DNA from: Candidatus Bathyarchaeota archaeon
Lineage (GTDB): Archaea > Thermoproteota > Bathyarchaeia > Bathyarchaeales > SOJC01
DNA length: 64,000 nucleotides
Assembly: GCA_026014805.1 (NCBI GenBank)
Contig: JAOZHR010000031.1
Location: 62,001 to 126,000 of the forward strand
Direction of reading: 5' to 3'
Under the pieces are notes generated by a model. That model had not been told where the DNA came from, ran no database searches, and worked only from the letters and a program-made list of their open reading frames with translations. Every line of letters starts with the position of its first letter. The first letter of the stretch is position 1. The position numbers were made by a program, and so were the translations under genes. This document shows, one piece after another, positions 31,536-47,432 of the stretch.

Positions 31536-31623
31536 GCGGGGTTGCCCTAGCCTGGTAGGGGGCAGGCCTGCTAAGCCTGTGGTCCATCGGGCCGCGCGGG
31601 TTCGAATCCCGCACCCCGCGCCA
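31536..31623 (+). tRNA. tRNA-Ser (GCU)
   Basis: A class II tRNA of 88 nt with encoded CCA. The acceptor GCGGGGT pairs with ACCCCGC. The anticodon stem CAGGC/GCCTG holds loop CTGCTAA, giving anticodon GCU. A long variable arm follows, and the T arm is GCGGG-TTCGAAT-CCCGC. Its last 25 bp recur at 42215-42239, marking it as an integration target that was restored by the element. Confidence 0.93.
31599..31623 (+). repeat. Attachment repeat within tRNA-Ser (attL)
   Basis: The 25-bp tRNA 3' end from GGTTCGAATCCC to the terminal CCA, identical to 42215-42239. The base following differs between the copies (A here, T there). Confidence 0.85.
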
Positions 31624-31642
31624 AATCCTCGGGTTACATTAG

Positions 31643-31650
31643 ATTTATAT
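31643..31650 (+). promoter_or_regulatory. TATA box of the integrase
   Basis: TTTATATA lies 24-31 bp before GTG 31674. Standard archaeal spacing would place the transcript start at or next to the start codon, so the integrase mRNA is probably leaderless. Confidence 0.5.
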
Positions 31651-31673
31651 ATGTGCATGATCTATTCTGATTA

Positions 31674-32909
31674 GTGTTAAGCTTGAATGCGCACGTGCGT
31701 GACGCTTGGTTTGATAGGGTTTATAGACGCAGCCATTCGGATCACAGCAAGCACGCCGCTGAAATGGCTTTGAGGGCATTCGATAGGACTCTTGGAAGGC
31801 CAGCTGAGGCTGTAATCGATGCGATTAAGAAGGAGCAGCTAGACGTTTACTCGGTCTTTGAGGAATTCACAGCAAAGCTGGATAAGGCCAGTTATAGTCC
31901 TCACACGATTAGCGACTACGTGAATAGAGTCAAGCAGTATTTCATCTACAACGACATAGTTATGGATAAGAGTATCTTCCGTGTCAAAGTCGGATTGCCA
32001 AGGATTATAGATCCTGACGATAGAGCGCCGACTGTTGGAGAGCTAAGGAAAATCCTGACATGGGGCAAACTTAGAACAAAGACGCTAATTCTAGTTCTGG
32101 CAAGCTCAGGGATGAGGGTTGGAGAGGCGATCAAGCTTAAGGTAAGAGACCTTGACTTTAGCTCCAAGCCTGTGAAAGTGCAGCTTTCACCCCGTGTCGC
32201 TTCGAAGACCGGTGAAGCAAGAGCAACTTACATCTCTGATGAAGCATTGGAATACCTAGAGCAATACCTAGGTGAAAGAATCAATGAACCTGAGGCTTGG
32301 GTGTTTGTCTCCGAGGCTGACAATTGCAGACATATGAGTGACGATAGAGCTTGGAGGACAATTATTGACTGTGTGGAGAAGGCTGGACTTGGCAAGTCAA
32401 GGGAAACAACGGTGCGTGGGAGAAGAAAGATACACCCCCATAGTTTGAGGAAGTTCTTCTTCTCAAAGGTTGTGGGCGTGATAGGCGAGACTGCTGCTCA
32501 TGCGTTGATGGGACATGGTTCATACATGAAAACATACTATCGAAGGACGGAGGAGGAGAGGGCGAGGGACTATCGTAGGTGCATGCCATACCTTACAGTT
32601 TTTGGCGAGTCACCGGAAAAGAGCAAGTGGAAAGAAGAGGCCAAGCTTGAGGCTATTAGAGCCTTTGCCCAAGCTATGGACGTAGATCCCATGCGTGTTA
32701 GAATAGAAAAGCAGAAGGAACTGGCTAGGGAGCCCACAGCTGAAGAGGAGATAAAAGCAATCCAAAACGAAATCAGGAAGCTCAGATCTGGAAACAACGA
32801 TCCCAAAAAGATCATAACTGAGAAGGATCTTCCGAAACATTTAGCTGAAGGATGGGATGTCCAAAACATTCTTCCAAGCGGAAAAATAATCATAGCAAAA
32901 ATCGACTAA
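31674..32909 (+). CDS. Tyrosine recombinase / integrase
   Basis: A 411-residue tyrosine recombinase. An N-terminal core-binding domain (SPHTISDYVNRVKQYFIY) is followed by the catalytic domain with Arg in SSGMRVGEAIKL (~residue 149), HPHSLRKFFFSK (HxxR), and His plus Tyr in MGHGSYMKTYYRR. A charged C-terminal helix follows. It would insert and excise the element at tRNA-Ser, 50 bp away. The tRNA is intact and the gene itself is not split, unlike SSV-type integrases. Confidence 0.93.
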   Translation: MLSLNAHVRDAWFDRVYRRSHSDHSKHAAEMALRAFDRTLGRPAEAVIDAIKKEQLDVYSVFEEFTAKLDKASYSPHTISDYVNRVKQYFIYNDIVMDKSIFRVKVGLPRIIDPDDRAPTVGELRKILTWGKLRTKTLILVLASSGMRVGEAIKLKVRDLDFSSKPVKVQLSPRVASKTGEARATYISDEALEYLEQYLGERINEPEAWVFVSEADNCRHMSDDRAWRTIIDCVEKAGLGKSRETTVRGRRKIHPHSLRKFFFSKVVGVIGETAAHALMGHGSYMKTYYRRTEEERARDYRRCMPYLTVFGESPEKSKWKEEAKLEAIRAFAQAMDVDPMRVRIEKQKELAREPTAEEEIKAIQNEIRKLRSGNNDPKKIITEKDLPKHLAEGWDVQNILPSGKIIIAKID

Positions 32910-33351
32910 AATGCATGCATATTTACTACGTATCAACTACCAAATAGCAGGATTGTCCATAGAGTAAATGGTCTGCATGGGTTGATGTCCCAATACAACT
33001 TCTAGGGACATGAGGCCATTCAAACACTCTGGAAAAGCCCAATTATTACGCTATTTGGACGCCATGCATACTGCTGGCCGCTGTAACCTTCAAAAGAAGA
33101 CCCTGATCATTTGTTAGTATGTGTCTGCAATTGTGAAACTGTGCTATTTGCAGCTGGTGGTTGCTGCGACGTAAATTGTGGTTAATCGGAATTAACACCC
33201 ATTTCAGCATAGAAGTTTCTTCCACAAGCCATAGGAATTGAAGCCAGCATATACGCGCACCTCTTTTATGAATAGAACATTCTTCATCTTGTTCTGGAAC
33301 TAGGTTTCACAAAGCTTTCATTAATCCTATCTTATTAATCATACAAGATAG
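32910..33351. other. Noncoding stretch after the integrase
   Basis: About 440 bp without a credible gene. It opens with ATGCATGCATAT (32911-32922), 2 nt past the integrase stop. An AT-rich TCTTATTAATCATACA near 33330 may be the promoter of the next gene. Confidence 0.4.
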
Positions 33352-34608
33352 GTGATGAATCGAATTATGAGGTCTTTAGGTAGATTTAGGCGTGCAATAC
33401 TCGTGTCACTCGTTCTTGTGGTAGTAGCATGCATGCTAACCAGTGGTTCATACTTGGCTGACATGATGTATCGGAATAATCATGCGGGATCTTCCCAAAT
33501 TGCTGAAACCCAACATGTTGTCGAGGTAAGTGAGACAAGTGTTGTTCCGCAACGGTTTTCTAGCGACGTCGAGACCGCAGTGGTCACGCCTGTTGCGAGG
33601 GTTGCTGACCCTCTGTCTGTGAATCCTAATTCTCTTTCTCCGCAAGCTCTTCTGCCCAATATCGAGCCTGCGTTTGCGATCCCATCAGACCAGACAACAG
33701 TCACACACACGAATTGGGCAATTCCCACTGGATCCAGCCATCCTTATGACATTGCGATCGACTCTTCCAACAACGTCTACTTCGTTGAATCTGATGGTAA
33801 TAGGATTGGGAGGCTTGTTCCCTCTACGAACGTGATCACTGAGTGGCCCATACCTACAGCAGACAGCACTCCTTGGAGTGTTGCGGTTGACTCTTCCAAC
33901 AACGTCTACTTCACAGAAAGAGATGGTGAGAAAATTGGTAGGCTTGTTCCCTCTACGAACGTGATCACTGAGTGGCCCATACCTACAGCAGACGGCCATC
34001 CTTGTGGTGTTGCGGTTGACTCTTCTGACAACGTCTACTTCGCAGAATCTGGTGGTAATAAGATTGGTAGGCTTGTTCCCTCTACGAACGTGATCACTGA
34101 GTGGGCCATACCTACGGCAAAAATCCCATTAGGTGTTGCGATCGACTCTTCCAACAACGTCTACTTCATGGAATATGGGGGCAATGCGATTGGCAGGCTT
34201 GATCCCTCCACCAACGTGATTACTAAGTGGGCCATACCTACGGCATACAGCCATCCTCGACGTGTTGCGGTTGACTCCTCCGACAACGTCTACTTCACAG
34301 GAGAAAGTGGTAATAAGATTGGTAGGCTTGTTCCCTCTACGAACGTGATCACTGAGTGGGCCATACCTACAGCAGACGGCCATCCTTGGGGTGTTGCGGT
34401 TGACTCTTCTGACAACGTCTACTTCGCAGAAGCTGGTTATTATGCACCTGGGATTGGTAGGCTTGTTCCCTCTACGAACGTGATCACTGAGTGGCCTGTG
34501 CATCTTCCATATTCAACTGGTGGCTTCCCAAGAGCTGTTGCGATCGACTCTTCTGACAACGTCTACTTCGTTGAAACTAATGGAAATTGCATTGGTAGGC
34601 TGAGCTGA
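33352..34608 (+). CDS. Secreted beta-propeller protein (virginiamycin B lyase-like)
   Basis: A 418-residue protein. Residues ~13-32 are a membrane or signal segment (LVSLVLVVVACMLTSG, with a possible lipobox cysteine). After a linker come about seven near-identical ~42-residue blades of the type GVAVDSSDNVYFAESGGNKI plus a GRLVPSTNVITEW segment. This is the Vgb/streptogramin-lyase-like propeller (COG4257). The DNA of the blades is also nearly identical, implying recent expansion or homogenisation. Most such proteins are not lyases, so the activity is unknown; a surface-exposed role is likely. Start GTG 33352 or ATG 33355. Confidence 0.8.
   Translation: MMNRIMRSLGRFRRAILVSLVLVVVACMLTSGSYLADMMYRNNHAGSSQIAETQHVVEVSETSVVPQRFSSDVETAVVTPVARVADPLSVNPNSLSPQALLPNIEPAFAIPSDQTTVTHTNWAIPTGSSHPYDIAIDSSNNVYFVESDGNRIGRLVPSTNVITEWPIPTADSTPWSVAVDSSNNVYFTERDGEKIGRLVPSTNVITEWPIPTADGHPCGVAVDSSDNVYFAESGGNKIGRLVPSTNVITEWAIPTAKIPLGVAIDSSNNVYFMEYGGNAIGRLDPSTNVITKWAIPTAYSHPRRVAVDSSDNVYFTGESGNKIGRLVPSTNVITEWAIPTADGHPWGVAVDSSDNVYFAEAGYYAPGIGRLVPSTNVITEWPVHLPYSTGGFPRAVAIDSSDNVYFVETNGNCIGRLS
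33760..34600 (+). repeat. Tandem ~126-bp coding repeats of the propeller blades
   Basis: Blocks sharing AGGCTTGTTCCCTCTACGAA and GACTCTTC followed by CAACGTCTACTTC recur every 120-135 bp. They encode the beta-propeller blades. Confidence 0.75.
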
Positions 34609-34622
34609 GACGGTGCCCCAGG

Positions 34623-36626
34623 ATGCCTTCACCTGAGAAGCGGCATCTTCTCTTCGTACTCCTAACTATATTTCTTACAACGGGTCTAGTATTAGCCTCG
34701 ATACCCCAAGATACGATTGTAGCGCCTGCTTCAACTCCAGTCACTCCTTCGGATACGACTGTACCACCATCAGGCCCCACGACCTATGTAGCGCCTGCTT
34801 CAACTCCAGTCACTCCTTCGGATACGACTGTACCACCATCAGGCCCCACGACCTATGTAGCGCCTGCTTCAACTCCAGTCACTCCTTCGGACACGACCGT
34901 ACCACCCTCTACAAACACACCCACTCCAGTTTCTTCCACCGTAGAGCCTGTGATCAATACCTTGGAGGGGGTGATAGCCTGGTCCGGCACAATTGTAGAT
35001 CCTGTTATCAATACCTTGGAGGGAGTGATAGCCTGGTCCGGCACAATTGTAGAGCCGGAAGTCAGTACGCTGGTAGGAACCGTTTACCTCGCACCCGCCA
35101 TCGAAAGCTGTGATTCAACCGGAGAGAAAAAGGATACCTTCCACCCCAACGAGGGCGTATATGTAACAGGAACCGGGTATTCACCCTCCACAACCTACGA
35201 CATACGCGTGGTAGAGGATGTAGCTGCGTGGACCGATGGCATGGCCATCCCATCACGTGTTCCAGATACTGCAATTTCGGTGTCCTCGGATGCCAGTGGG
35301 ATTATTCAGCCAATGCTTGTATGGAGTGATCCTCTCGTTGTTGGGAAGTATGACATCATAGTTGATGTGAACAGCAATGGCTTATTTGACCAAGACATGG
35401 ACCCTTTGGACGACAGCGACATAGAAGTGCATGCATTCCTTATGACAATAACTCCTGCAAGCCAATCGGCCCCCGCAATTGCATGGGCAAGCTACACTGT
35501 TACCGTCACGAATTTGGCAGATGTTGAACACACAGTTTTGCTTCAAGGGCCTCTGGGTGAGAAAGCGTGGCTGCCCTACTGTGACTGGACAGATGGACCG
35601 TATCCCTTCACAACCGAGTTCATCCTTGCCGTAGGAGAGGTGAAAGATGTCCCGCTTGGAGTCCGAGTATGGGATCCTTCGGCTATCGGCGGTCCACCAT
35701 ACACGTATCTCATTGGGGTGTATGGTTACACTAGTCTTGACGGCTATGCACAGACCGTGGCAATCGCAACTGCCGACCACTCTGTCGTCGGAGATTACGG
35801 AACAATATCAACTGCAACCGGAACTGGAACAGCCCGCTTCGCGTCAGATGCTGGCACGATTGTAGGCCTCGAAGCGGTGGACGAAGCCACGCTACCTGCG
35901 GAAGGCAAGCCTGAAGGGGTCGTCTTTCCCCATGGACTGTTTTCCTTCACCGTTGAAGGCCTCACCCCCGGTCAGACGATTACGATGTACCTCGAACTGC
36001 CATCTTCCTGGCCCATCGGCCAACCCTACTGGAAACATCAGGAAGGCGTCGGATGGTTCCCCTTCCCCATCGGCAGCGACGACGGAGACGCCATCATCAC
36101 GCTCACCCTCACCGACGGTGGGCCCACCACAACCACTGGAGACGGTGACAACACTGCCAACGGCGTAATCGTAGAACCCGGAGGCCCCGCGCTTGTGCCT
36201 CCTGAAGTCTGGTCCACAGACCTGCTCGGCAGCGCTAAAGGAACCTTCCTACCGGGCGACGAAGTATATGCGGAGGGAACATGGTTTCCTGCAAACACAG
36301 CAGTCGCAATCTACTTCATCCCCGACGGAGAAGAGATATTGCCAGAACACGCTGTTGCCAGCGCAATCCAGACCACCAACAACGCTGGAGGTCTCCCAGT
36401 CACCCTAGTGTGGTCGTCACCACTAGACCTAGGAACCTACGACATCTGGGTTGACGTAAACCAAAACGGCTTCTTCGACAACGGTGATGCTTTAACCGAC
36501 CAAGCCCTAGGCGTCTACGGGTTCAACGTCATCCCAGAACCCGCCGTCCTGGTCAGCATTCTCCTGATGGTCGGCGCCCTCGCCACCTACAGCTTAGCCA
36601 GCAAACGCAAACACGCTATTGATTAA
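34623..36626 (+). CDS. Large surface protein with choice-of-anchor-U-like domain and PEP-CTERM-like tail
   Basis: A 667-residue exported protein. A signal peptide (LLFVLLTIFLTTGLVLASIP) is followed by three 23-residue Thr/Pro repeats (VAPASTPVTPSDTTVPPSG...) and two 18-residue repeats (EPVINTLEGVIAWSGTIV). Two related Ig-like modules (YDIIVDVNSNGLFD and YDIWVDVNQNGFFD) flank a domain with FPHGLFSFTVEGLTPGQT and VIVEPGG, matching choice-of-anchor U. It ends in IPEPAVLVSILLMVGALATY and a KRKH basic tail, like a PEP-CTERM sorting signal. The second half is clearly more GC-rich than its neighbours. It follows the propeller gene by 14 bp; both are likely displayed together. Confidence 0.8.
   Translation: MPSPEKRHLLFVLLTIFLTTGLVLASIPQDTIVAPASTPVTPSDTTVPPSGPTTYVAPASTPVTPSDTTVPPSGPTTYVAPASTPVTPSDTTVPPSTNTPTPVSSTVEPVINTLEGVIAWSGTIVDPVINTLEGVIAWSGTIVEPEVSTLVGTVYLAPAIESCDSTGEKKDTFHPNEGVYVTGTGYSPSTTYDIRVVEDVAAWTDGMAIPSRVPDTAISVSSDASGIIQPMLVWSDPLVVGKYDIIVDVNSNGLFDQDMDPLDDSDIEVHAFLMTITPASQSAPAIAWASYTVTVTNLADVEHTVLLQGPLGEKAWLPYCDWTDGPYPFTTEFILAVGEVKDVPLGVRVWDPSAIGGPPYTYLIGVYGYTSLDGYAQTVAIATADHSVVGDYGTISTATGTGTARFASDAGTIVGLEAVDEATLPAEGKPEGVVFPHGLFSFTVEGLTPGQTITMYLELPSSWPIGQPYWKHQEGVGWFPFPIGSDDGDAIITLTLTDGGPTTTTGDGDNTANGVIVEPGGPALVPPEVWSTDLLGSAKGTFLPGDEVYAEGTWFPANTAVAIYFIPDGEEILPEHAVASAIQTTNNAGGLPVTLVWSSPLDLGTYDIWVDVNQNGFFDNGDALTDQALGVYGFNVIPEPAVLVSILLMVGALATYSLASKRKHAID
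34719..34910 (+). repeat. Tandem 69-bp coding repeats
   Basis: Copies start at 34719, 34788 and 34857 (the last is partial), nearly identical, encoding 23-residue Thr/Pro stalk units. Two 54-bp repeats follow at about 34947 and 35001. Confidence 0.85.
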
Positions 36627-36703
36627 CTCACTGTTTTCTGAAAGAGAAAGCATATCAGAACCTGCTAATTCGTGAGTCTATCTTCCGCAGACTCCCGCTT
36701 TTC

Positions 36704-36723
36704 CACACACACGCATGCATGCA
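36704..36723. repeat. Alternating purine/pyrimidine tract
   Basis: A perfect 20-nt alternation, CACACACACGCATGCATGCA. It lies 10 nt beyond the ancestral stop (36734) of the amber-interrupted transglutaminase-like gene, the same kind of position as in other members. Confidence 0.65.
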
Positions 36724-36733
36724 AGGGTTTTGC

Positions 36734-37309
36734 TTATCTGTATCGTGAGGTAACGTCCTCAATTTTCCCGTCTTCAAAAGCTAAGACGTTCAATGTGAAC
36801 CTTGGCCCCCAACCCCAGCTTCTGTAACGCGAAGTATCATTCTAAGAAGCAGTAGGACTTGGATCGACGTGAGTCCAAATGTCGTCCACTTTCACCTCTG
36901 CCCAAACATGAAAACCGCGAGCAGTAACCAAGTAGAATTGTCGAGAGACAACGAGTCTGGCCTCATATCCAAGGGCCAAACATGCAGCCACATAAACAAT
37001 AGCGAATTCTTCACATTTGCCCTTCCCTTGGCTCAGAATCTGTTGAGGCTCAGAGTATCGCGTGAAGCTCTCAGAGGACCAATTGAGATTTTGACTTATC
37101 CACCTCAAAAGCTCAATAAAGTCGTAGGTTCCATTGATCCTATCGTGCATGTACGTTTTGGTTTTATTCCTGTTCAGATCTTTCATTACACTCAAGTAGT
37201 ACCACTGGGAATCAAGCATGCATGAATAACAGATAAGCGCTATAACGACTGCCGTGATTACACATATAATGGCTACAGTCCTCTTTTTCGTAAGCTTGGG
37301 GCGACGCAT
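36734..37309 (-). pseudogene. Transglutaminase-like protein interrupted by one amber codon
   Basis: From ATG 37309 the frame gives 155 residues and meets TAG at 36842-36844. Beyond it the same frame continues for 35 more codons to TAA 36734. Counting the TAG as a residue gives 191, exactly the length of the intact paralog at 56065-56640. The TAG stands where the paralog has Trp (AFWNDTSRYRSWNWGP). The N-terminal helix, a Cys in QGKGKCEEFAIVY, His in GFHVWAEV and Asp in THVDPSPT form the transglutaminase triad. A short protein that keeps the triad may still be made. Confidence 0.75.
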
Positions 37310-37761
37310 CTCAGCTGAGCATTTCGTTGTAGTTCAATATAGGCTTTGACACCAATGCATGCATGTATCTGCTTATTTTGGCTAGCGGAGCATAGAGGAT
37401 TTGAAAGGAGTTCTGATATTCTATGTAGTTATTCACTCGTAAAATATGAGATTTCTGTTTTCATGTCCATCATGCTCTGCCATCAGAAATCCTCTACTTG
37501 TGATTACGCAACAATTTGTGGCTTTAGAGTTAAAAGATTTCACAATAGAAAAAGAGGGAGTTTTGCGGGAGATGTCTCCATTTGTCGCCGGTTCAAATCC
37601 AGCCCTCGACACCTCAATGGGGCTCTGGAAAAGGTCAGCGATACTTCACTTTCTCATCCTGAAGAGAGATCAACGTAGACACTCTCGATAATGAATCCTA
37701 AGTGTGGATGAAAATCCTATTAGTTCTGACTGCAATTCATACATTGTAGTGGGGAGCCGTA
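37310..37761. other. Intergenic stretch with tract, repeat motif and tRNA-like fragment
   Basis: About 450 bp. It contains the alternating ATGCATGCATGTAT (37355-37368), a TTTGCGGGAGATGTCTCCA motif (37562-37580) related to two copies at 38854 and 40042, and a tRNA 3'-end-like sequence at 37584-37613. An open frame across this tRNA fragment is regarded as chance. Confidence 0.4.
37584..37613 (+). other. tRNA 3'-end-like fragment
   Basis: GCCGGTTCAAATCCAGC followed by CCTCGACACC has the layout of a T arm plus acceptor 3' strand, with one mismatch in the T stem. It is not the tRNA-Ser or tRNA-Val of this window. It may be an old attachment-site remnant of another element. Confidence 0.4.
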
Positions 37762-38148
37762 ATGTCCAAGAGAATGGAGAGACAACTAACTGGCAAAATG
37801 GGTGAGTTCAGAGTTTTCGTCAAGTTGTTGGAGCAAGGATTTGTGCCTTATGTTCCACTTGTTGATGAAGGAATAGATTGCTTGTTGCTAGATGGTACTA
37901 AGATTCAAATAAAAACCGTAAAAACGCAGAGAGACCCAAGGTGGTTTCAGGTAACAAATCTTGTGCCTGAGGATGACTTCTACATAATTTGCGTTGATGC
38001 AAGTGGAGCGTTTTGGGTCTTTCCTTCAAGAGTTTTTGCTGAGAACGCTACCGAATCCAAGGGAATATTTGATCTAAACCTCGACAGTAAAGGCAGATTT
38101 GAGAAACTGCGGAACTACCAAAACGCTTGGCATTTATTGAAGAAATAG
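37762..38148 (+). CDS. Small nuclease-like protein (PD-(D/E)XK fold candidate)
   Basis: A 128-residue protein. The early helix GKMGEFRVFVKLLEQGF, then DEGIDCLLLDGTKIQIKTVK, has the arrangement of restriction-endonuclease-like proteins: an acidic residue (D ~40) and a Q-I-K strand instead of E-x-K. It resembles proteins that recognise or cut DNA with a GxxGE...D...QxK core. It lies in the integrated element and is the only plus-strand gene in that half. Activity unproven. Confidence 0.55.
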   Translation: MSKRMERQLTGKMGEFRVFVKLLEQGFVPYVPLVDEGIDCLLLDGTKIQIKTVKTQRDPRWFQVTNLVPEDDFYIICVDASGAFWVFPSRVFAENATESKGIFDLNLDSKGRFEKLRNYQNAWHLLKK

Positions 38149-38182
38149 GACTCCCGCTCTCTCGGGATGAAGTGGGCTATTC

Positions 38183-38698
38183 TTAGAAGGTACGGTCAAA
38201 TCCGAGCACATAAGGACACAGGATGGGGTATTGTGTAATTGCTCCCTTCTTTCGTTTGTAATGACAAGCTAGTCGCAAGTGATATTTCCCGATTGATCCG
38301 CATAGTTGCTTTCCTGACTGATACCACTCTGTTTTCCTTCTTGAGGCGTTGACCGCTACAACCATTTCGATCTGCGTCGGCATCATTCCTGCCACGTCCA
38401 TGTCACTTAGTTTAGTTGATGCCTTTTGTTTTCCCCATTGTGTGTGAGAGTGGAAATAGCCGACGTGATGCAGTTGCATGAGGCTGGGCAGGAGTTCTTG
38501 GACTCTTGACTCTCTTTTCCAGTCAGGTTCAACCTCAGTTGGTTTTCTTTTTGCTGTTTGATAGGGGATAACGTATTCTATTACTATTCTGTTTCGGATG
38601 TTGTAGCCGAGCAGGGAGCCTAGGCATTCGTTTCTATAGACTTCGATTGCCGATAGCACTAGACCAATAAAGGCCTTGTCAGAAAGGAAAACGTCCAC
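38183..38698 (-). CDS. JAMM/MPN-domain metalloprotease
   Basis: A 171-residue JAB1/MPN protein with every JAMM residue present: E24 (NECLGSLLGY), H83 and H85 (GYFHSHTQWG), S98 and D101 (LSDMD). The loop between HxH and SxxD is longer than usual (12 residues). Such enzymes remove ubiquitin-like tags or cut other isopeptide bonds. No ubiquitin-like or E1 gene is next to it. Within a mobile element a role in defence or counter-defence is possible. Confidence 0.75.
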   Translation of the reverse strand: MDVFLSDKAFIGLVLSAIEVYRNECLGSLLGYNIRNRIVIEYVIPYQTAKRKPTEVEPDWKRESRVQELLPSLMQLHHVGYFHSHTQWGKQKASTKLSDMDVAGMMPTQIEMVVAVNASRRKTEWYQSGKQLCGSIGKYHLRLACHYKRKKGAITQYPILCPYVLGFDRTF

Positions 38699-38853
38699 TG
38701 GATAGACCTCGCTTATAGTCTGTAAATGCTATTCCATTTGCTTCTTAAGTTTAACTCACGCTCGAATCAGCATTTTCAATGGGTTTCGACAAGAAACAGG
38801 ACTAATTGGAGTCCAAAAGAAAACTTTGCAGGCCAATTATCTCAAAAATGGGG

Positions 38854-38873
38854 TTGTGCGGGTGACATCTCCA
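38854..38873 (+). repeat. 20-bp intergenic motif, copy 1
   Basis: TTGTGCGGGTGACATCTCCA, identical to 40042-40061. It lies 155 bp upstream of the JAMM gene start. Confidence 0.6.
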
Positions 38874-38974
38874 CTCGTGGTGAAGTCCAGACTGATTGAG
38901 AGGCTGATTGATGTAGTGATCCGACCTCATCTGGGGCTCCGATTGTTCGCTGCACTAGATGGTGCTACGAGCTT

Positions 38975-38999
38975 TGCATGCATGCATGCGCGCGCATGT
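38975..38999. repeat. 25-nt alternating purine/pyrimidine tract
   Basis: Repeated GCAT units followed by GCGCGC and ATGT: 25 nt of perfect alternation. It is the longest in the window and ends 1 nt before the stop codon of the minus-strand gene at 39001. Confidence 0.7.
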
Positions 39000-39000
39000 T

Positions 39001-39834
39001 CTATGGTTTGGCTTCTTTCAAAATCTTCTCGACTCGCTCTCGCAGTTTTGCATTTTGAGTTGCCAGATCATCAAGCTTTCTTCTAATAAGATATTTGTAT
39101 TCTTCTGCCAATTCACTGTGTAAGAGTACATACACAATATCTTTGTAAAAATCTTCAAACTGAGCATCATCTAACTTGATTATGAGATCAAAGGTCAGGT
39201 CATGTAAAGGTTTGCCAGGAAACTTCCTAAGTAATTGAAAAGCTCGCACTGCAGCACTCGTCAACGTTCTATCCCAAACTAGGTCTTCAGCAAACTCCTG
39301 CGTACAATCAATCAAGTTAGTTTTCCATAACGAACCTTCAGGCTCAAATGCAAGCATGTAGTCCAACGCATTCCAAAGATGCATCTGGAGAGTACCTTTC
39401 CACATGAGCTTCTTTCTAAAGAAATCCTTTACCCCTTTTTTTGTTCTGAAGTTTGGATTGGGACTAAATTTAGGAGAAAAATACCAAGCAACTCTCTTCG
39501 AATTGCTTAGCCTTTCGAAAAACTTGTAGCCACGTTCACGAATTTCTGGAATTGGGCTTTCCATCTCTTCAAGATAAAGCTCAATGTCTTGTTGATTTGC
39601 TATTAACCGGGGATTCACGACTTGCAGGAATTTGTGGTATTTCTCATCCTCGCCCATCAACTTGAGTTCTTCAATTTTTTTTCCCTCTAGAAGCTTCTTC
39701 TTATGGCGAAAATAGGTGGCTCTGGCTATATCTTCAGGTAAAGCTTTTCTCAACTCTCTAGGAGTGAGTTTGCGTGCTCCTAAGACATGAAGTATTTCTT
39801 CTTCGACGTCTCTTTGTGCTTGATTACCTGACAA
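39001..39834 (-). CDS. Helix-turn-helix protein with large alpha-helical domain
   Basis: A 277-residue protein. Residues ~8-55 look like a winged helix (EEEILHVLGARKLTPRELRK...TYFRHKKKLLEG). The remaining two thirds are helical, perhaps HEAT-like, ending in a KLRERVEKILKEAK coil. No known effector domain was recognised. A 19-bp direct repeat lies in its upstream region (39849 and 39889), suggesting it regulates itself. It could be the element's own regulator. Confidence 0.65.
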   Translation of the reverse strand: MSGNQAQRDVEEEILHVLGARKLTPRELRKALPEDIARATYFRHKKKLLEGKKIEELKLMGEDEKYHKFLQVVNPRLIANQQDIELYLEEMESPIPEIRERGYKFFERLSNSKRVAWYFSPKFSPNPNFRTKKGVKDFFRKKLMWKGTLQMHLWNALDYMLAFEPEGSLWKTNLIDCTQEFAEDLVWDRTLTSAAVRAFQLLRKFPGKPLHDLTFDLIIKLDDAQFEDFYKDIVYVLLHSELAEEYKYLIRRKLDDLATQNAKLRERVEKILKEAKP

Positions 39835-39848
39835 GTCTCAAATCCTAG

Positions 39849-39907
39849 ACAAAAGTCTCATTTTGCGAATAAAAGGCTTACGTTTTTCACAAAAGTATCG
39901 TTTTGCT
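39849..39907. promoter_or_regulatory. Direct-repeat operator candidate
   Basis: ACAAAAGTCTCATTTTGCG (39849-39867) and ACAAAAGTATCGTTTTGCT (39889-39907) match at 16 of 19 positions and start 40 bp apart, about four helical turns. Each half is itself imperfectly palindromic (CAAAA...TTTTG). They lie just upstream of the helix-turn-helix gene. Confidence 0.5.
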
Positions 39908-40041
39908 ACTCTAGAAATCGCTTTATCCCCCCACTCTAATTATGAGATGCGCGCCGACGCGCTGGTGGGCCGGAGCTGGAGAAGGATGCGCATCCTAGAA
40001 CCGCGTGCGTCATTAGCATATTGACAATGAAAAAGGAGGGA

Positions 40042-40061
40042 TTGTGCGGGTGACATCTCCA
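40042..40061 (+). repeat. 20-bp intergenic motif, copy 2
   Basis: TTGTGCGGGTGACATCTCCA, identical to 38854-38873, in the gap between the helix-turn-helix gene and the gene at 40131. Confidence 0.6.
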
Positions 40062-40130
40062 TTAACCTTGGTTTTACTTCAAACCGATAGAATAATATAA
40101 AGATGCATGCATGATATGAAGGGCTTCTAC

Positions 40131-40541
40131 TTATCTACACCTAGATAGCAGCAAATCAACTACCGTTTTCTGAATAACTGGATTGTGCTCCTCATACATC
40201 GTGTTGTTTCTTACATTGTACTTATCTTTGATCTTTCCCAGCTCTTTTGCGCCAACCCAAATCCATTTCACCTTCACACATTCTCCAAGACCTGTTGACA
40301 AAACTTGGTCATGAACGACTATTCCAACTGCTTTAATAGTCAGTCCCAAACCAGCAGGATGTGACTTCAGATAAATTATGTCGCCTATTTTGATATAGGC
40401 AAGCATACTATGCAATGCTGGAGCGTCAGCTTTACCCCATCCTACACAAGCTACTTCTTTGGTAAGAAATCCATCGGTTACATCTTCAAGATAATAAGCA
40501 CCTAATCCATATATCGCCAAAACATTCTCACCGCTAACCAA
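40131..40541 (-). CDS. PUA/EVE-like small protein of unknown function
   Basis: A 136-residue beta-rich protein. The middle part, ALHSMLAYIKIGDIIYLKSH followed by GLGLTIKAVGIV, resembles the 'I/V-GD-x-V/I-Y' strand of EVE/PUA-like nucleic-acid-binding domains. A C-terminal helical tail (NPVIQKTVVDLLLSR) follows. It may sense modified bases, but this is a fold-level guess. ATGCATGCATG (40103-40113) lies 17 nt beyond its stop. Confidence 0.5.
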   Translation of the reverse strand: MVSGENVLAIYGLGAYYLEDVTDGFLTKEVACVGWGKADAPALHSMLAYIKIGDIIYLKSHPAGLGLTIKAVGIVVHDQVLSTGLGECVKVKWIWVGAKELGKIKDKYNVRNNTMYEEHNPVIQKTVVDLLLSRCR

Positions 40542-40818
40542 TAAATGCTGATCTCATTTATCCTTTTTCAGATACAATGTTGCTAACTTGATAAGTGAGA
40601 AATGGAGCCTATTTCATAAAGAAAAATGCTAAATTCATGCACACATACGAAACAGGATAGAAGAGAGTGACAGCGACGACCTCTCCATCAACAAGTTTAT
40701 GGTTGTGCTATTTTCCACATTTGATGCATGCATCCAAGCTAGACGACGACCCTACGTGGATGGACGAGGGTACTGAAATACGCCAAATAATAGTTCATTT
40801 GCGCGCGCGCTTTTGATT

Positions 40819-41220
40819 TTACCTCGAGAGCTTTTCCTTTAGTGCCAGATAGTCTTCTATTATGTCATATTTCCTTAGTGTCAGAGGAGCTCCAGATTTG
40901 AAATCGAATTTTTTATGTTCTTTTCTACCGTCTTCCCATTGAATCGTTCTATGGAACCAGATTCCAAATGCAAAGGGGAAACTGTAATGAATATGTTTTA
41001 TAGTGGGGAGTTTGTCCTCAGGTGTGAAAATCCAATGATTTTTAGTTATATAGGCCTTCCATTTGGCGTTGGTCCTAGGCATTTCGACCTCAAAATAACC
41101 GCCGAACCTCCTTTTCTTGTCTTCCTTCCAGTGGAAACCTAGAGGTTCGATTTCTTTCCTCAAAACAATAAACATCGAGTTACCTATGGCGTCAATTACA
41201 GACTTTCTTTCTTTTTGCAA
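40819..41220 (-). CDS. Unknown protein of the integrated element
   Basis: A 133-residue protein. The beta-rich centre FGGYFEVEMPRTNAKWKAYI and aromatic-rich IHYSFPFAFGIWFHRTIQWE suggest a compact alpha/beta domain. I recognise no family. A GC-only alternating tract (TGCGCGCGCGC, 40800-40810) lies 8 nt past its stop. Confidence 0.5.
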   Translation of the reverse strand: MQKERKSVIDAIGNSMFIVLRKEIEPLGFHWKEDKKRRFGGYFEVEMPRTNAKWKAYITKNHWIFTPEDKLPTIKHIHYSFPFAFGIWFHRTIQWEDGRKEHKKFDFKSGAPLTLRKYDIIEDYLALKEKLSR

Positions 41221-41427
41221 TTCAAATCCTGTGAGAACACGAAGAGTATTAGCATAAAAACCTGCCGAAGCTTTTGTTGCACAAGAAGAAGGCGTGTTCG
41301 AGAAAGTAGGTTGGCGTGGGGTTTAGGTGGAGCGCGCGCAGAGGGTTGTAATGTCTTCTTAGTGGTGCAACCACAATAATGGAAGCTTCTGGTTCCTAAA
41401 GTATGTATGCGTACAATAACGCGGTGT

Positions 41428-42135
41428 CTATCCTTCCTGTAATCTTCTAAGACGCTCTAGTATTATTGTTCTTGTTTCTGGTTGTTTTCTCCACTTATTG
41501 TCATAATCTCTACGACTTTCTGCTGATATTTTCTTTTCACGGAGCAACTCATTAAGCAATTGAACAAACTGGTTGTACTCGACCATTGTTTCTTTTAGTT
41601 TTCGTTGCTCTTCTGTGATGAAATCTTTTATTCTCATTCCATGTTGGTATTTATAAGAATCTAAAAAATATCTCAATGCTTCAAACTCTTTTTCATATTC
41701 ATCATCACTTATTCTTGCAGAATAGTGAGTTAGTCCTAAAAGCGGTTTGAAACGATCTATTGCAATCAGTACATCAAAAGCTTTTTTCCCTAAGGCAATA
41801 ATGACTTTAGGCTTTACAATCCTCACTTCCTTGTCAAACCATTTAATGCAGTTGTCAACCTCTGTTTTAGTCAGCTCTTTGAATTTTCTCTCTCTGCACT
41901 TCACGACATCTGTGAGGTGCGCATTGTTAAATCCATATTTTTTCATATTTACATAGAGCCTTCTATCATTCGGTGTCGTAGGAAATTCTCCAAGATGCGG
42001 TTGTGTGGCGACAAAAATGTAATCTTCAGCTCCAAAGAAGCCTTTCACATCTCCAATTGGGGGAAAATTCCAGAAATCATTTTTTCCACAACGATTACAC
42101 CGACTGATGGAGCTTCTCAAGTCTTTGAGATTCAT
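41428..42135 (-). CDS. Uracil-DNA glycosylase superfamily-like protein
   Basis: A 235-residue protein. A Cys pair (SRCNRCGKNDFWNFPPIGD) precedes a core with HLTDVVKCRERKFKELTKTE and IVKPKVIIALGKKAFDVL, the pattern of family 4-type UDGs. The GEAPG water-activating motif is not seen (VATQPHLGEFPTT instead), so activity may differ. Residues after ~150 are a non-family helical tail. ATG 42135 is chosen; the longer frame runs into the attachment repeat. It is the last gene before attR. Confidence 0.65.
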   Translation of the reverse strand: MNLKDLRSSISRCNRCGKNDFWNFPPIGDVKGFFGAEDYIFVATQPHLGEFPTTPNDRRLYVNMKKYGFNNAHLTDVVKCRERKFKELTKTEVDNCIKWFDKEVRIVKPKVIIALGKKAFDVLIAIDRFKPLLGLTHYSARISDDEYEKEFEALRYFLDSYKYQHGMRIKDFITEEQRKLKETMVEYNQFVQLLNELLREKKISAESRRDYDNKWRKQPETRTIILERLRRLQEG

Positions 42136-42214
42136 GGTTAAGAGTGAACAGTAACTGACATAAAACTCTGCACGTGCGAAAAGCTGGATGCATGTAACCC
42201 GCTGAATTATAACT

Positions 42215-42239
42215 GGTTCGAATCCCGCACCCCGCGCCA
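42215..42239 (+). repeat. Attachment repeat (attR), tRNA-Ser 3' end
   Basis: Exact copy of the last 25 bp of tRNA-Ser (31599-31623), with no other part of a tRNA upstream. It marks the distal boundary of the integrated element. Confidence 0.85.
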
Positions 42240-42433
42240 TCCGCTGTCCCACAAACAAATAGGTTTTTGCAAAGCATTTTGAGAAATATTAGATTTTTGC
42301 TGAGATTTAGGCTTTACAGCTTTTCTAGATGTTCTGTCATTCCCGTCCTTGGTTAAAACCTGTTTTTTCATGATATTAAGTTCGGGAAGTCGTATTTCAA
42401 AGTTGTCGGACATTGCTGAATTATCGTTCTGTC

Positions 42434-43135
42434 TTATTGATGGAGAATCCTGTGTCGATATGTGACAGCTACTACAACACCCATTGTTGAAGCAATCTTG
42501 ATGATAACACTGCTGTATGGAATAAGCTGAGGAACGATGATGATTGAGACTACTACAAATAGAACCGAAATGATTTTTGATCTGTATCCGCTACCGAAAG
42601 CTGTCTCATAAATTTCCTTAAAGGTGCCAAAGAGTCCTTTGATCGCTCCTAAAAGCGTAAATCCAAAATCCAGAAGCCATGTTATGTTAAAAACCAAAGG
42701 AAAGAGTGCACCGAGTTGATGACGGAATAACATAGTGATTGCAGGTAGAAATATGACAAAGACAAACCCTGCGATAAGAAATGCTGCCAACAATCCTTCT
42801 CTCTTGTAGAATTGAGAGAATACTAATTCAAATCCAGCCATGAATTTCGCCATGCTTAGTGAGATGAAAAAGATGACTATATTGACAAATCCAGACACTG
42901 CCCATAGAGCAGGAAATGGACCATAGTCTGGGAATGGAATCTGAAAAGCATAAGACCCTATGATTACGCCGAGGATGTGGCTCCAGATTTTGCTTAGACC
43001 TAGAACCTCGGACCAGAAATCGGAAAAAACTTCTGATATCATAGCATAAATGCATACGAAAAAGGTTGTTGCCAAGATAATTCGACCTGCAAACAAAACT
43101 TCAGGGAGAAAAAGAACTTCAGTAATCAATTGCAT
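42434..43135 (-). CDS. Multi-pass membrane protein of unknown function
   Basis: A 233-residue protein with about six membrane helices and few charges, among them FFVCIYAMISEVFSDF at the N-terminus and KIISVLFVVVSIIIVPQLI near the C-terminus. No transporter signature was recognised. It is the first gene outside the integrated element. A 16-nt alternating tract (43213-43228) lies 78 bp upstream. Confidence 0.65.
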   Translation of the reverse strand: MQLITEVLFLPEVLFAGRIILATTFFVCIYAMISEVFSDFWSEVLGLSKIWSHILGVIIGSYAFQIPFPDYGPFPALWAVSGFVNIVIFFISLSMAKFMAGFELVFSQFYKREGLLAAFLIAGFVFVIFLPAITMLFRHQLGALFPLVFNITWLLDFGFTLLGAIKGLFGTFKEIYETAFGSGYRSKIISVLFVVVSIIIVPQLIPYSSVIIKIASTMGVVVAVTYRHRILHQ

Positions 43136-43248
43136 CTTTGGTCTCCGCCTATTGACTACAAGATTGAGTACTGAAAACAGCTTCTAATAAATTCTGTCCT
43201 GATATGCATAAAATGTGCGCGCATGCATTTTGGGATACATGTGCGAAG

Positions 43249-43716
43249 TTAGCTTTTCATAACAGCTTTGCATATCGTGTTGAAGTCTTCTTCTGTAATT
43301 CTGATTATGGAAACTTGAACATATTGATTCCACGTTCCTCCTTTGTCTGCAATAAAAACTATGTCGTCTATGAAATTAGGTTTAATCCATTTGGCTTTGT
43401 CTTCGATTTCCTTAGTTGAAAATGAGATTCGTGGAGGATTTTTGCTTTCATGGATTATTCTGAGATTGATTCTGTAAGGAAATAGAAATCTGCGTTTGCC
43501 TTTAGTCCAACCGATGTCTTCTTCGCTAAAGTAGTGCTTACCTACAAATTCCGCTACTGCAACGAATTTCCCACCATGAGTATAGACTACAGCCTTGTCA
43601 CCGCTTTCAAGGAACTTTTTCAATGTTACATAATATCTAGCGTCCATACCCCATACGCTATTTTTTCTACAGATTTCCCAATTATCAGGTGATGTTGAAA
43701 TACACCAGTATCTCAC
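43249..43716 (-). CDS. EVE-domain protein
   Basis: A 155-residue EVE-domain protein. It begins MRYWCISTSPDNWEICRKN, has FLESGDKAVVYTHGGKFVAV (the GD-x-V-Y strand), and ends VSIIRITEEDFNTICKAV. EVE domains bind modified bases in DNA or RNA and often accompany modification-dependent restriction enzymes. A 16-nt alternating tract (43213-43228) lies 20 nt beyond its stop. Confidence 0.75.
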   Translation of the reverse strand: MRYWCISTSPDNWEICRKNSVWGMDARYYVTLKKFLESGDKAVVYTHGGKFVAVAEFVGKHYFSEEDIGWTKGKRRFLFPYRINLRIIHESKNPPRISFSTKEIEDKAKWIKPNFIDDIVFIADKGGTWNQYVQVSIIRITEEDFNTICKAVMKS

Positions 43717-43780
43717 AATTATCCCAGATACGGCTTATGAGCGACCTCATATAATATTTTTAAACAACTATTTCTAACAC

Positions 43781-43796
43781 TGCGCGCGCGTACGCA
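43781..43796. repeat. Alternating purine/pyrimidine tract
   Basis: TGCGCGCGCGTACGCA, 16 nt of perfect alternation, 6 nt beyond the stop of the coiled-coil transglutaminase-like gene. Confidence 0.65.
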
Positions 43797-43802
43797 CTGT
43801 TT

Positions 43803-44954
43803 CTATCTACTATACATCCACACGAGGTATTCACTTGTTGATGAAAACGTCTTGTCCATGTAATCAGAAAAGACACGATAGACGTAAACATCGCTTCCCA
43901 TCGAAGGTTTCCAATAATCCAACCAGTTGTTGATTTCAGTAGTAATGTCGTTAAATTCTATGTCACCCCAGAAATCGTGGCTGTAATAGTTTCCAGCAGG
44001 ATCGAAAATAACTAATTTGTCCCCTGAAACGAGGATCTGAACAGCTAGATGTGCTGAAGTTGAGCTAGATATCCCGATACACTCTATCCAGTTTAGTGAA
44101 CAGTACGATCTTATCAGAGAGCAAAGAAGTATTGCTTGGTCTTCACAATCTCCTTTCTGGAGATCTAATGTTTCATTTGCGAATTGCCACATTTCTGTTG
44201 AATAAGATACCCCGCCTGAAGGATCATAAGGAAGCACTGGATATAGCCCGTCATACCTATATTCTATGTTATCTACAACCCATTGATACATTGCTTTGAC
44301 ATCATCCCAGAATTCGTTCCAATCAGAAGTGTTGCTCCATCCCCCAGTTATGTCCAGTACTGTTACAATAACGCTTGAATCTTGAGGAGTCACGAAAGAT
44401 TCTACATCGGGGTGATTTCGTCTTTGATTGATTTCGTCCCTTAGATTTTGGTCTGCTGTGACATATCTGTTGTATTCGTCTTCCAGAGAGGTATATTGAG
44501 ACTGTAAATTATTATATTGTAACAGCAACGTATTGTACTGCTGTTCGAGTGTCAGATAATCTTGATATTCTAGCAGTAGTGTGTCGTAGTCTCCTTGGAG
44601 TTGTGTGTATTGCTTGTTCAGAATCGCATGAGTTTCAAACAAACTTGTGTGAGTTGTGTTCAGATCTAGGAAAGTAGTCTCAAGGTTTGTGTAGTTAGCT
44701 CCTAAGGTTGAATATGAAGACTGAAGATTGGCAAAATCATCGAGCAGACTGGTGTACTGAATTTGAAGAGTGGTGTGGTTATTTGAAAGCGAATTATGGA
44801 TAGATTCTAAGGCTTCATACTCATTTTCTAAGGCTTCGTAATTGGAAGTGAGAGACAAGTGTTCTCTATTCAGAACGAAATAGAAGATTGACTGAACTGA
44901 AATTATAGCAATCAAAACAGAGCACAAAATGTACCATTTGTTCAAATTTTTCAT
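43803..44954 (-). CDS. Membrane-anchored coiled-coil transglutaminase-like protein
   Basis: A 383-residue protein. It has one N-terminal helix (WYILCSVLIAIISVQSIFYF), a long coiled coil with repeated 'QYTSLLDDFANLQSSYSTL'-type heptads (~40-180), then a transglutaminase core. The core's Cys is in LQKGDCEDQAILLCSLI, His in STSAHLAVQILV and Asp in LVIFDPAGNYY. It is probably exposed outside the cell. ATG 44954 begins directly before the helix. Two smaller relatives occur at 36734 and 56065. Confidence 0.8.
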   Translation of the reverse strand: MKNLNKWYILCSVLIAIISVQSIFYFVLNREHLSLTSNYEALENEYEALESIHNSLSNNHTTLQIQYTSLLDDFANLQSSYSTLGANYTNLETTFLDLNTTHTSLFETHAILNKQYTQLQGDYDTLLLEYQDYLTLEQQYNTLLLQYNNLQSQYTSLEDEYNRYVTADQNLRDEINQRRNHPDVESFVTPQDSSVIVTVLDITGGWSNTSDWNEFWDDVKAMYQWVVDNIEYRYDGLYPVLPYDPSGGVSYSTEMWQFANETLDLQKGDCEDQAILLCSLIRSYCSLNWIECIGISSSTSAHLAVQILVSGDKLVIFDPAGNYYSHDFWGDIEFNDITTEINNWLDYWKPSMGSDVYVYRVFSDYMDKTFSSTSEYLVWMYSR

Positions 44955-45124
44955 CTTCCTTGTTAGGAAAGACAATTCACCATATATTAAAGCTCTGCGC
45001 ACGCCCTTCACTTTGAGAGATTTTGTGGGAGTCTCCGATATTGAGAGCTTGGGGCCTTATGTCAAAACCCAGTGGAGAGACTACCAAGGAAAATTCTTGA
45101 AAAAAGGATCTGAGATAACGCATG

Positions 45125-45499
45125 TCAATCTTTGAAATGTGCTAGTAAAAGAAAGATTAGAAAGAGCAAACCTAGAATTCCAACCACCATAATAATAGGA
45201 TTATTAGTTGCAGCAGCAATTACAGGTATAACGATGCTTCCTCCAATCAAGAGCGCAATAATGAAAGTAGCTATTAAGGCATTTGTCAGAGACCTAGGAA
45301 ATTCCTTCTTCTTGCTAGTTCTTTTTCGCTCTGCTTCTTTCTCTGTAGCTTTTTGCCTTTGGTACCAAAATGGTTCTTTAGGTAGGGATATGCATTCATG
45401 GTTTTCCGGAAGCCTGTGTTTAGCACAGAAACTTAGACTACAATAAGGACATGCAAAGGGAAGAGGGACCTCTTCACCACACAATTCACATTTTGTCAT
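45125..45499 (-). CDS. AN1-type zinc finger membrane protein
   Basis: A 124-residue protein. Residues 4-36 are an AN1 zinc finger (C4, C7, C17, C20, C25, H28, H34, C36). Then comes a basic linker and two membrane helices (ALIATFIIALLIGGSIVIPV and IIMVVGILGLLFLIFLLLAH). Archaeal proteins of this layout are known but not characterised. Confidence 0.85.
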   Translation of the reverse strand: MTKCELCGEEVPLPFACPYCSLSFCAKHRLPENHECISLPKEPFWYQRQKATEKEAERKRTSKKKEFPRSLTNALIATFIIALLIGGSIVIPVIAAATNNPIIMVVGILGLLFLIFLLLAHFKD

Positions 45500-45678
45500 G
45501 GTTTACTATCAGACTTTGTTGTATGCTGCTTCACATTATATGACTATTGTAGAATAAATGTTGCTCGTTTTAAAATCAGTTGAAAAGCAAACCTTCGTAG
45601 AGAATGAAGACTATTGGACGACATTCAGTTTATAGGACTTCTGATGGTGAGTATTCGAAGCTTCCAGAACGGAAATGA

Positions 45679-46767
45679 TTATAGGTTCAGATTTTTTTGT
45701 CCCTTGTCAGATTTGAGATTTGACACTCGTACACCTACTAATCTTACCTTTTTATTCTCTTGAAGATATTTCTGAGCAAGCTCTTCAGCTGTTTTTTGCA
45801 GCTCTTGCAGAAAATTTGTGAAGAAGGGCAAAGTCTTTCCGTGAGTGAAAGTTTGAAAGTTTCCGAACCTAATCTTAACCGTGACCGTTTTGAAAAGTAT
45901 CCCATATTTGACAGCTCTTTCATGGATTCTTTGGCATGTATCGTTTATTCTTTTCAAGATGATATCTTGATCACTTGTATTTGTCGCAAAGGTACTTTCA
46001 TGGCCTATAGATTTTCTCATCCCTTTTCTATTTCCAACTTCTGATACGTAGATACCATGTGCCCATTGATGAAAGCGTCTTCCCATGACTCCTAACTTGT
46101 CAATAAGTATAGAAACGTCAAATGCTGCCAAATCACCTATTGTTCTGATTCCCAACTTGTTCAATTTGCTTTCTGTTTTCTCGCCTATCCATAACATTCT
46201 TCTCACAGGTAATGGAGCTAAAAAACTCTCCACATTGTCTTCAGTGACAACAGTCAAACCATCAGGTTTTTTGAAATCGCTGGCAATCTTGGCTACAAGC
46301 TTGTTTGGTGCAATACCTATAGAACAAGTTAGCCTTTCATTCCATAACACATCGTATTTTATGCATATTGCAAGTTGAGTTGCTTCTTCAAAGTCTTCCA
46401 CTTTTGAACTGATGTCAAGAAAAGCCTCATCAAAACCCCATTGCTGAAACTTCTCAGAATAGTTTCTCAAAATAGCCATGAGTCTCCTAGACACTTCTTT
46501 ATATAATGAATAGTTGGATCTTACATAGATAGCGTTTGGACAAAGCTGCCAAGCTCTTGAAATCGGCATACCTGAATGAACGCCGAATTTTCTAGCTTCA
46601 TAATTACAGGTTTTAACAACTCCTCTGCCTTTACCTTTATTCGGATCAGCGCCTACAACAACTGGCTTACCTTTGAACTCTGGATGTTCTCTCTCTTCTA
46701 TGGCAGAGAAGAAATGATCCATGTCAACATGAAGTATTATCCGTTTATCTTTAGACGAAATTTTCAT
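45679..46767 (-). CDS. dinB: DNA polymerase IV (Y-family)
   Basis: A 362-residue translesion polymerase. Motifs are LHVDMDHFFSAIEE (first catalytic Asp), the FDEAFLDIS catalytic pair near residue 105, TCSIGIAPNKLVAKIASDFK near 145, and a little-finger domain from ~240. Its start overlaps the upstream nuclease-like gene by 17 bp, so they are expressed together. It bypasses lesions in template DNA. Confidence 0.93.
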   Translation of the reverse strand: MKISSKDKRIILHVDMDHFFSAIEEREHPEFKGKPVVVGADPNKGKGRGVVKTCNYEARKFGVHSGMPISRAWQLCPNAIYVRSNYSLYKEVSRRLMAILRNYSEKFQQWGFDEAFLDISSKVEDFEEATQLAICIKYDVLWNERLTCSIGIAPNKLVAKIASDFKKPDGLTVVTEDNVESFLAPLPVRRMLWIGEKTESKLNKLGIRTIGDLAAFDVSILIDKLGVMGRRFHQWAHGIYVSEVGNRKGMRKSIGHESTFATNTSDQDIILKRINDTCQRIHERAVKYGILFKTVTVKIRFGNFQTFTHGKTLPFFTNFLQELQKTAEELAQKYLQENKKVRLVGVRVSNLKSDKGQKNLNL

Positions 46768-47371
46768 ATTGATGGTCCTCTACTAAGAATCTGTTAAGAT
46801 CAAAGGAAACAATCCTTACTCTGATCAGTCGAAGCGGAACACCCTTTGCTATCAAGTCGTTGTACGTTTTCTTCTGTTTATCCATCAACTTCGCATTACG
46901 ACCACATTTAATCTCAATAATTTCCAAGTCGCCTTCAACGATTGGCAACTTGAAGACATTTCCTTGTTTCAGAGTTCCAATTCGCAATCTTGCTATAGAA
47001 GGACAAGCATTTTCTTTTATTCTCCTTATTTTTCCTGTTCCTTTAAGCTTCAATAATAAGCCATCAGGAGTACAATGGTTCTGCTCTAAAATGCCAACGG
47101 CGCTGGCATATTTGGAAAGAAGCTCCCTGTTTGCATAGAAACCATGAATTATAAAGTCCTCTCTGAAATAATCAAATTTGAAAAGCTTCGTGTTAAAAAT
47201 CCATGCATGTTGTTTGTAGTCATTTCTGCTGAGCACAACATAATCCCAATCCTCTTTTTTGATTAGCCTCGGAGCCAGTTTATTTCGTACAAAACTCCTT
47301 GCCAACTGCTCGCCAATAGCTCCTTTCAAGCCATTATATTCAAGATGTTTAAACCGATACTGCAAAGCCAA
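46751..47371 (-). CDS. PD-(D/E)XK nuclease-like protein, partner of DinB
   Basis: A 206-residue protein. The start GLKGAIGEQLARSFVRNKLA, TPDGLLLKLKG (the PD motif, ~residue 122) and DLEIIEIKCGRNAKL (E-x-K, ~172) give the complete restriction-endonuclose-like core in order. A final strand LRLIRVRIVSFDLNRF follows. It begins at TTG 47371 and overlaps dinB by 17 bp. Co-expression with a translesion polymerase suggests a repair nuclease; this is inference. Confidence 0.65.
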   Translation of the reverse strand: MALQYRFKHLEYNGLKGAIGEQLARSFVRNKLAPRLIKKEDWDYVVLSRNDYKQHAWIFNTKLFKFDYFREDFIIHGFYANRELLSKYASAVGILEQNHCTPDGLLLKLKGTGKIRRIKENACPSIARLRIGTLKQGNVFKLPIVEGDLEIIEIKCGRNAKLMDKQKKTYNDLIAKGVPLRLIRVRIVSFDLNRFLVEDHQYENFV

Positions 47372-47432
47372 CGCCTAACCAATTGAAAGTCTATAACACT
47401 TTTGAGCTACACTTGGAACATTTTCACTCATT

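Follow-up and report, generated by a model that had tools for sequence, protein, structure and literature searches.

A likely tRNA-integrated element of a bathyarchaeon that carries two surface-protein genes, one with a tail of a class probably read by a host sortase

The 64,000-nucleotide stretch of Candidatus Bathyarchaeota archaeon DNA analysed here (the window; contig JAOZHR010000031.1, positions 62,001 to 126,000) contains two adjacent genes, for an exported beta-propeller and for a 667-residue surface protein with a sorting-like C-terminal tail, both situated between a tRNA-Ser(GCT) gene and an exact copy of that gene's 3′ end. A preliminary description of this DNA had placed the two open reading frames (ORFs) 14 bp apart, and both were recovered with that spacing. 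The features that delimit the segment and make up the two genes, including the attachment (att) repeats and the immunoglobulin-like (Ig-like) modules, are as follows, in window coordinates.

31536–31623, forward strand: tRNA-Ser(GCT), the integration site, whose last 25 bp (31599–31623) form attL (ARAGORN; exact repeat)
31674–32909, forward strand: tyrosine integrase (PF00589, 71 bits; phrog_1 and phrog_216 integrase; relative in genome G079 68% identical)
33352–34608, forward strand: exported beta-propeller (PF24684, 204 bits; N-terminal hydrophobic segment; 129-bp blade repeat)
34623–36626, forward strand: 667-residue surface protein (domain matches, hydropathy, repeats, tail)
35091–35450, forward strand: Ig-like module 1 (alignment A4 of 22 copies; AlphaFold2)
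35907–36194, forward strand: choice-of-anchor-U domain, residues 429–524 (NF041766, 89.6 bits against a cut-off of 32)
36198–36536, forward strand: Ig-like module 2, which extends into the tail (module alignment A4)
36528–36623, forward strand: C-terminal sorting-like tail VIPEP...KRKHAID (own-genome matches of tail profiles A2 and A3; 29.1 bits)
42215–42239, forward strand: attR, exact 25-bp copy of the tRNA-Ser 3′ end and right border of the element (exact repeat)

The propeller matched the Vgb-type/SBBP/NHL propeller family strongly, and its blades are amplified as a tandem repeat with a period of 129 bp (5.8 copies, 81% matches). The surface protein comprises, in this order, a signal segment, low-complexity repeats, the first Ig-like module, a middle region, the choice-of-anchor-U domain, the second module and a PEP/PEF-CTERM-like tail. 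As the preliminary description had proposed, both proteins are predicted to be exported on the strength of their N-terminal hydrophobic or signal segments, that of the surface protein being defined by hydropathy only (values up to 2.5 at residues 6–11, preceded by a basic start). Tandem repeats are real in both genes, but to call the surface gene full of them was an overstatement, as its two arrays (69 bp, 2.7 copies, 98%; 54 bp, 2.1 copies, 93%) are confined to about the first 150 codons. The choice-of-anchor-U domain was borne out by the curated model, and the C-terminus, which reads IPEPAVLVSILLMVGALATYSLASKRKHAID, does consist of an IPEP motif, the helix AVLVSILLMVGALATYSLA and the basic end SKRKH, in the manner of PEP-CTERM substrates. 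The Ig-like module spans about 115 residues, occurs twice in the protein and corresponds to no Pfam model; from the alignment of 22 copies, AlphaFold2 predicted a seven-strand sandwich (predicted local distance difference test score 93.5). A fold search with the module returned weak matches only, led by Ig-like adhesin repeat domains and with none at an expectation value (E) of 0.001, and no convincing match to the 667-residue protein was found among solved structures.

Profile searches and fetched stretches underlie all genome-wide statements made here. The preliminary description had suggested a sortase-dependent display system carried by an archaeal element; the element does carry a substrate, but no sortase gene, and the only exosortase/archaeosortase over the PF09721 cut-off in the genome lies on another contig, C25 (682 residues, 120.9–124 bits). 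This enzyme scored 59.5 bits against a cut-off of 23 with TIGR04178 and fell below the cut-off of every named Xrt subtype model. Its catalytic triad is intact, with C217, R262 and H283 invariant in 25 of 25 aligned long sortases, and it also has a long C-terminal part and a zinc ribbon, the four cysteines of which are invariant in 25 long relatives. Among named records, the closest sortase is that of Candidatus Bathyarchaeota archaeon L.E.AR.33, the one named relative retrieved; it is 58% identical and has tail proteins on both sides, the one just upstream bearing an N-terminal domain 52% identical to the resident module protein of the genome studied here. No description of sortases in Bathyarchaeia was found in the open literature, a search that left most subscription papers outside.

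Two kinds of protein were observed in the vicinity of such genes. Small exported proteins of one family, perhaps TasA-like by eye and, as far as members were scanned, matched by no family model, recur beside sortase and tail genes in several genomes (L006:3359–3874, L006:9540–10094, L018:683–1132, L123:9585–10130, L154:2273–2782 and L154:9434–9898). A candidate accessory factor is a conserved membrane protein, about 310 residues long and without a convincing match in Pfam, that occurs together with the long sortase in three genomes or more (L006:4296–5240, L123:10447–11364 and L154:7437–8387).

The genome encodes at least three further complete proteins, unrelated apart from a tail of this type, on contigs C25, C11 and C30. 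The preliminary description would have taken the tail for an ordinary membrane anchor had the genome contained neither a sortase nor a second protein with such a tail; it contains both. The first, a 193-residue exported protein with the end VVPEVPLG...ARRK, adjoins the sortase, and the tails on C11 (in a 215-residue exported protein) and C30 were detected by a profile of two tails. A profile of 11 tails yielded further, weaker matches in the genome, one of them in a 49-residue orphan frame on contig C4 (G000, L153:6336–6485); this frame ends VVPEFPSLIILALFMIATLLAVIVSRRKSKV and resembles a sorting tail left stranded, perhaps by the breakage of a gene. The 29 top tail loci without exception end at most 16 residues from the stop. 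When the 11 related tails were compared with curated CTERM models, weak E-values only were obtained; four of the 11 matched PEF-CTERM weakly, and several tails in the set carry IPEF.

The association between tail and sortase was assessed in 151 genomes, comprising that studied here and its relatives, with tails accepted at E up to 1e-3 and the sortase defined by a PF09721 match. Tails were present in 73 of the 111 genomes with such a match versus 6 of the 40 without (Fisher p 2.7e-8; counts tallied by hand from two lists, phylogeny ignored), and in 32 of the 36 genomes with a long sortase. As read from the coordinates of the tail and sortase matches, 12 of these 36 genomes had a tail gene no more than 5 kb from the long sortase, compared with 0.67 expected (P 4e-13).

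The Ig-like modules occur in proteins of many related archaeal genomes, where many module proteins terminate in [IV]PE[FYVLP], and the genome studied here has a resident module paralogue 58 kb away from the surface gene. In genome G037, a module-and-tail protein adjoins the sortase. In G022, the sortase contig encodes a single 665-residue protein in which an SBBP propeller and TSP3 repeats are joined to the module and the tail. The link between the propeller and the surface protein of the window is drawn from their neighbourhood and from this one fused protein with its SBBP-type propeller, which is the best hint that propeller and module-tail protein act together. No other adjacent propeller–surface pair was found in related genomes, which contain only distant propellers (identity up to 38%), and the scan of contigs from named genomes of close relatives gave no match to the surface protein. 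In G007 (L116), a tyrosine integrase with a zinc ribbon (4502–5719) is separated by 1.4 kb from a tail protein (7078–9195) with two modules and with CBM96 and InlB-type repeats; no tRNA was found in the fetched stretch around this integrase.

We consider it likely that the segment is a 10.6-kb tyrosine-integrase element inserted in tRNA-Ser(GCT), that its cargo is a two-gene surface unit, and that the tail of the 667-residue protein is of the class read by the C25 sortase of the host. This sortase, the presumed cognate enzyme, probably cuts the tail and fixes the protein to the cell surface. Several points weigh against this reading. The tail scored below every curated sorting-signal model scanned, with no CTERM family matching the 667-residue protein at E up to 10. 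The co-occurrence counts were made by hand and disregard phylogeny, and four of the six tail-positive genomes in which no sortase was detected belong to one genus. The tail of the own-genome module paralogue (L007) has no PE motif and may be a plain membrane anchor, and the sister locus in G022 has PQP in place of PEP. Just past attR, the sequence bears only a weak resemblance to the native tRNA flank (G009, p 0.015; G001, p 0.25), and no replication or capsid gene was recognised among the ORFs of the element. Lastly, the element is known here as an integrated copy read from the sequence, and from that same source we infer cleavage and anchoring of the tail by the C25 sortase.

Some of these points are also what would be expected if the 667-residue tail were an ordinary membrane anchor with a coincidental IPEP, the sortase serving only neighbours with a VPEVPLG-type tail: no curated CTERM model recognises the tail, the paralogue in the same genome is anchored without a PE motif, and sortase-negative genomes do contain tail matches. 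Against this stand the alignment of the tail with that of the sortase neighbour at V, P, E and the helix, the shared [IV]PE[FYVLP] ends of module proteins, the module-and-tail protein beside the sortase in G037, and the statistics of co-occurrence and adjacency, and we regard an ordinary anchor as unlikely.

A further alternative concerns the element rather than the tail, namely that the pair belongs to the chromosome itself, as resident surface variation at an old tRNA island, and is not the cargo of a mobile element. Composition bears on this. The preliminary description had taken the high guanine-cytosine (GC) content as a sign of transfer; the content is indeed high (0.51–0.535 versus about 0.43), but the values at the three codon positions of the surface gene (0.59, 0.50 and 0.53) place most of the excess at positions 1 and 2, and its synonymous codon distance of 0.141 falls within the range of chromosomal genes (0.10–0.167). 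Since amino-acid composition and host-like codon usage account for it, GC was rejected as evidence of transfer. Host-like synonymous codon usage would suit resident variation, as would the resident module paralogue and an island that runs 10 kb past attR.

Evidence from outside that description, by contrast, upholds its notion of mobile carriage. The pair is enclosed by the exact 25-bp tRNA repeat, for which the chance expectation was 0 in 100 shuffles and which bounds an element at 31599–42239, and the integrase frame is open and starts 51 bp downstream of the tRNA. An integrase 68% identical is found at the same tRNA in G079, next to quite different cargo that includes a Prim-Pol replicase. 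G001, of the same genus (95–97% DNA identity), lacks the surface gene and the propeller and gave no match to the integrase at E 1e-20. In both G001 and G009, the whole 20-kb island is missing, so that the flank found 20 kb from the tRNA here is 1.2–1.7 kb from it there; this absence extends over the approximately 10 kb that follow attR (as far as about 51970) and blurs the precise position of the empty site. Taken with these findings, resident variation appears quite improbable.

A decayed virus, with the pair as its virion surface (spike) proteins, was considered very improbable: the integrase in a tRNA would fit, and exported modular proteins could form envelope spikes, but no capsid, portal or packaging family was found among the element ORFs, neither the surface protein nor the integrase had a match in 2.9 million viral contigs, and the modules belong to proteins of many related archaeal genomes, so that a viral origin found no support. 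That the propeller might serve as resistance cargo, being a streptogramin B lyase that inactivates antibiotics, was rejected as scarcely credible, despite the Vgb lyase family being its best family match, because His228, Glu268 and His270 of 2z2n, which we take to be the catalytic residues of virginiamycin B lyase, align with W, H and C, in addition to which it scored 145.8 bits against a curated cut-off of 600, none of its blades has the P-H motif, and exported location and blade amplification are ill-suited to a cytosolic enzyme.

Further genes of the element, and the AT-rich sequence that follows it, are listed below.

36842–37309, reverse strand: gene for a transglutaminase-like membrane protein, broken by an in-frame TAG (PF01841, 67 bits; DNA alignment)
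37762–38148, forward strand: small possible nuclease, weak similarity (PD-(D/E)XK, E 0.11; homing endonuclease model, E 4e-4)
38183–38698, reverse strand: JAB/MPN-domain protein (PF01398, 24.8 bits)
41428–42135, reverse strand: uracil-DNA-glycosylase superfamily protein (PF03167, 42.8 bits)
42240–51970, no strand: AT-rich continuation of the tRNA-Ser island beyond the att borders (not syntenic with G001 and G009)

A paralogue of the transglutaminase-like gene at 56065–56640 has TGG at the position of the TAG, and in the DNA alignment the homology continues past the TAG; this paralogue lies within another stretch (about 55178–58110) missing from G001. The AT-rich half of the island, which G001 and G009 lack at that place, possibly stems from an older insertion; its genes include a Y-family DNA polymerase-like protein (45679–46767), a coiled-coil transglutaminase-like protein (43803–45011) and an SPL-like radical SAM protein (50464–51234). 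Near the same tRNA-Ser in G001 (L102:14538–17987), there is a long exported surface protein of 1149 residues within which, judged by eye, there seems to be a stretch (GMSMDPTL...GDIIAFYKP) similar to a signal peptidase.

The mechanism that we propose for the integrated element and the host sortase starts from what was observed, namely the integration site with its att repeats, the tail architecture, the intact sortase triad, the other tail proteins, and the co-occurrence and adjacency of tails and sortases. The 667-residue protein would be exported via the general secretion route until its tail halted it in the membrane, whereupon the host sortase would cut at or near the PEP motif and pass the protein to an anchor. 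Analogy with ArtA of haloarchaea suggests that this anchor may be a lipid (PMC7157517). The Ig-like modules would thereby be displayed and, partnered by the propeller, would serve in adhesion or in remodelling of the surface; adhesion is suggested by the Ig-like modules themselves and by the CBM96 and InlB-type repeats of relatives. The gain to the element might be a changed host surface, which is a guess.

Extended beyond this locus, the reading would be that archaeal integrative elements display surface proteins of their own via a host archaeosortase, as a recurring cargo strategy in Bathyarchaeia. We advance this tentatively and hold it to be doubtful; the integrase near a module-and-tail protein in G007 fits it as a putative second case. 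If true, such display would alter the binding properties of an infected cell or its openness to other elements and viruses. A mobile element, its surface-protein cargo and the host sortase that this cargo would need are seldom found together in uncultured archaea. Both the sortase, whose subtype is unnamed, and its tail signal occur widely in this order, so that the tail alone could serve to predict the surface proteomes of these common sediment archaea.

There is precedent for exosortases, archaeosortases and surface-gene islands (PMC5244752, PMC7157517, PMC4535781); the novelty lies in the combination of a tail subclass and a sortase subtype unnamed by current models with the presence of such a substrate as cargo of a tRNA-integrated element. 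Among known systems, exosortase/PEP-CTERM (EpsH family PF09721, TIGR02602, TIGR02595) shares the membrane-embedded Cys-Arg-His sortase, the many substrates with PEP, helix and basic tail, and the frequent placement of a substrate gene beside the sortase gene. It differs in that the tail described here is not recognised by PEP-CTERM models, and in that the sortase here stays under the cut-offs of the named Xrt models and possesses the additional zinc ribbon and long C-terminal part. Archaeosortase C/PEF-CTERM (TIGR03762, TIGR03024) is likewise archaeal and is approached by the IPEF of several tails and by the weak PEF-CTERM matches, whereas the C25 sortase reached 34 bits against a cut-off of 100 and the 667-residue protein has PEP, not PEF. 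In Haloferax volcanii, the substrates of archaeosortase A, which bear PGF-CTERM, are cleaved at the C-terminus and lipid-anchored (PMC7157517); this is the analogue on which the proposed mechanism is modelled, although signal motif and sortase subtype differ and lipid attachment would apply here by analogy only. Surface proteins that bear archaeosortase signals are also exchanged within the species Haloquadratum walsbyi, in its cell-wall genomic island and partly via mobile elements (PMC4535781), the agents there being transposases and recombination in a large island, in contrast to an att-bounded integrase element here. Finally, tRNA-targeting archaeal integrative elements have the integrase beside the tRNA and an att site from the tRNA 3′ end, usually of 40–50 bp (PMC8371274), an arrangement reproduced in the element of the window, except that its att repeat measures 25 bp and its cargo is a surface-protein pair.

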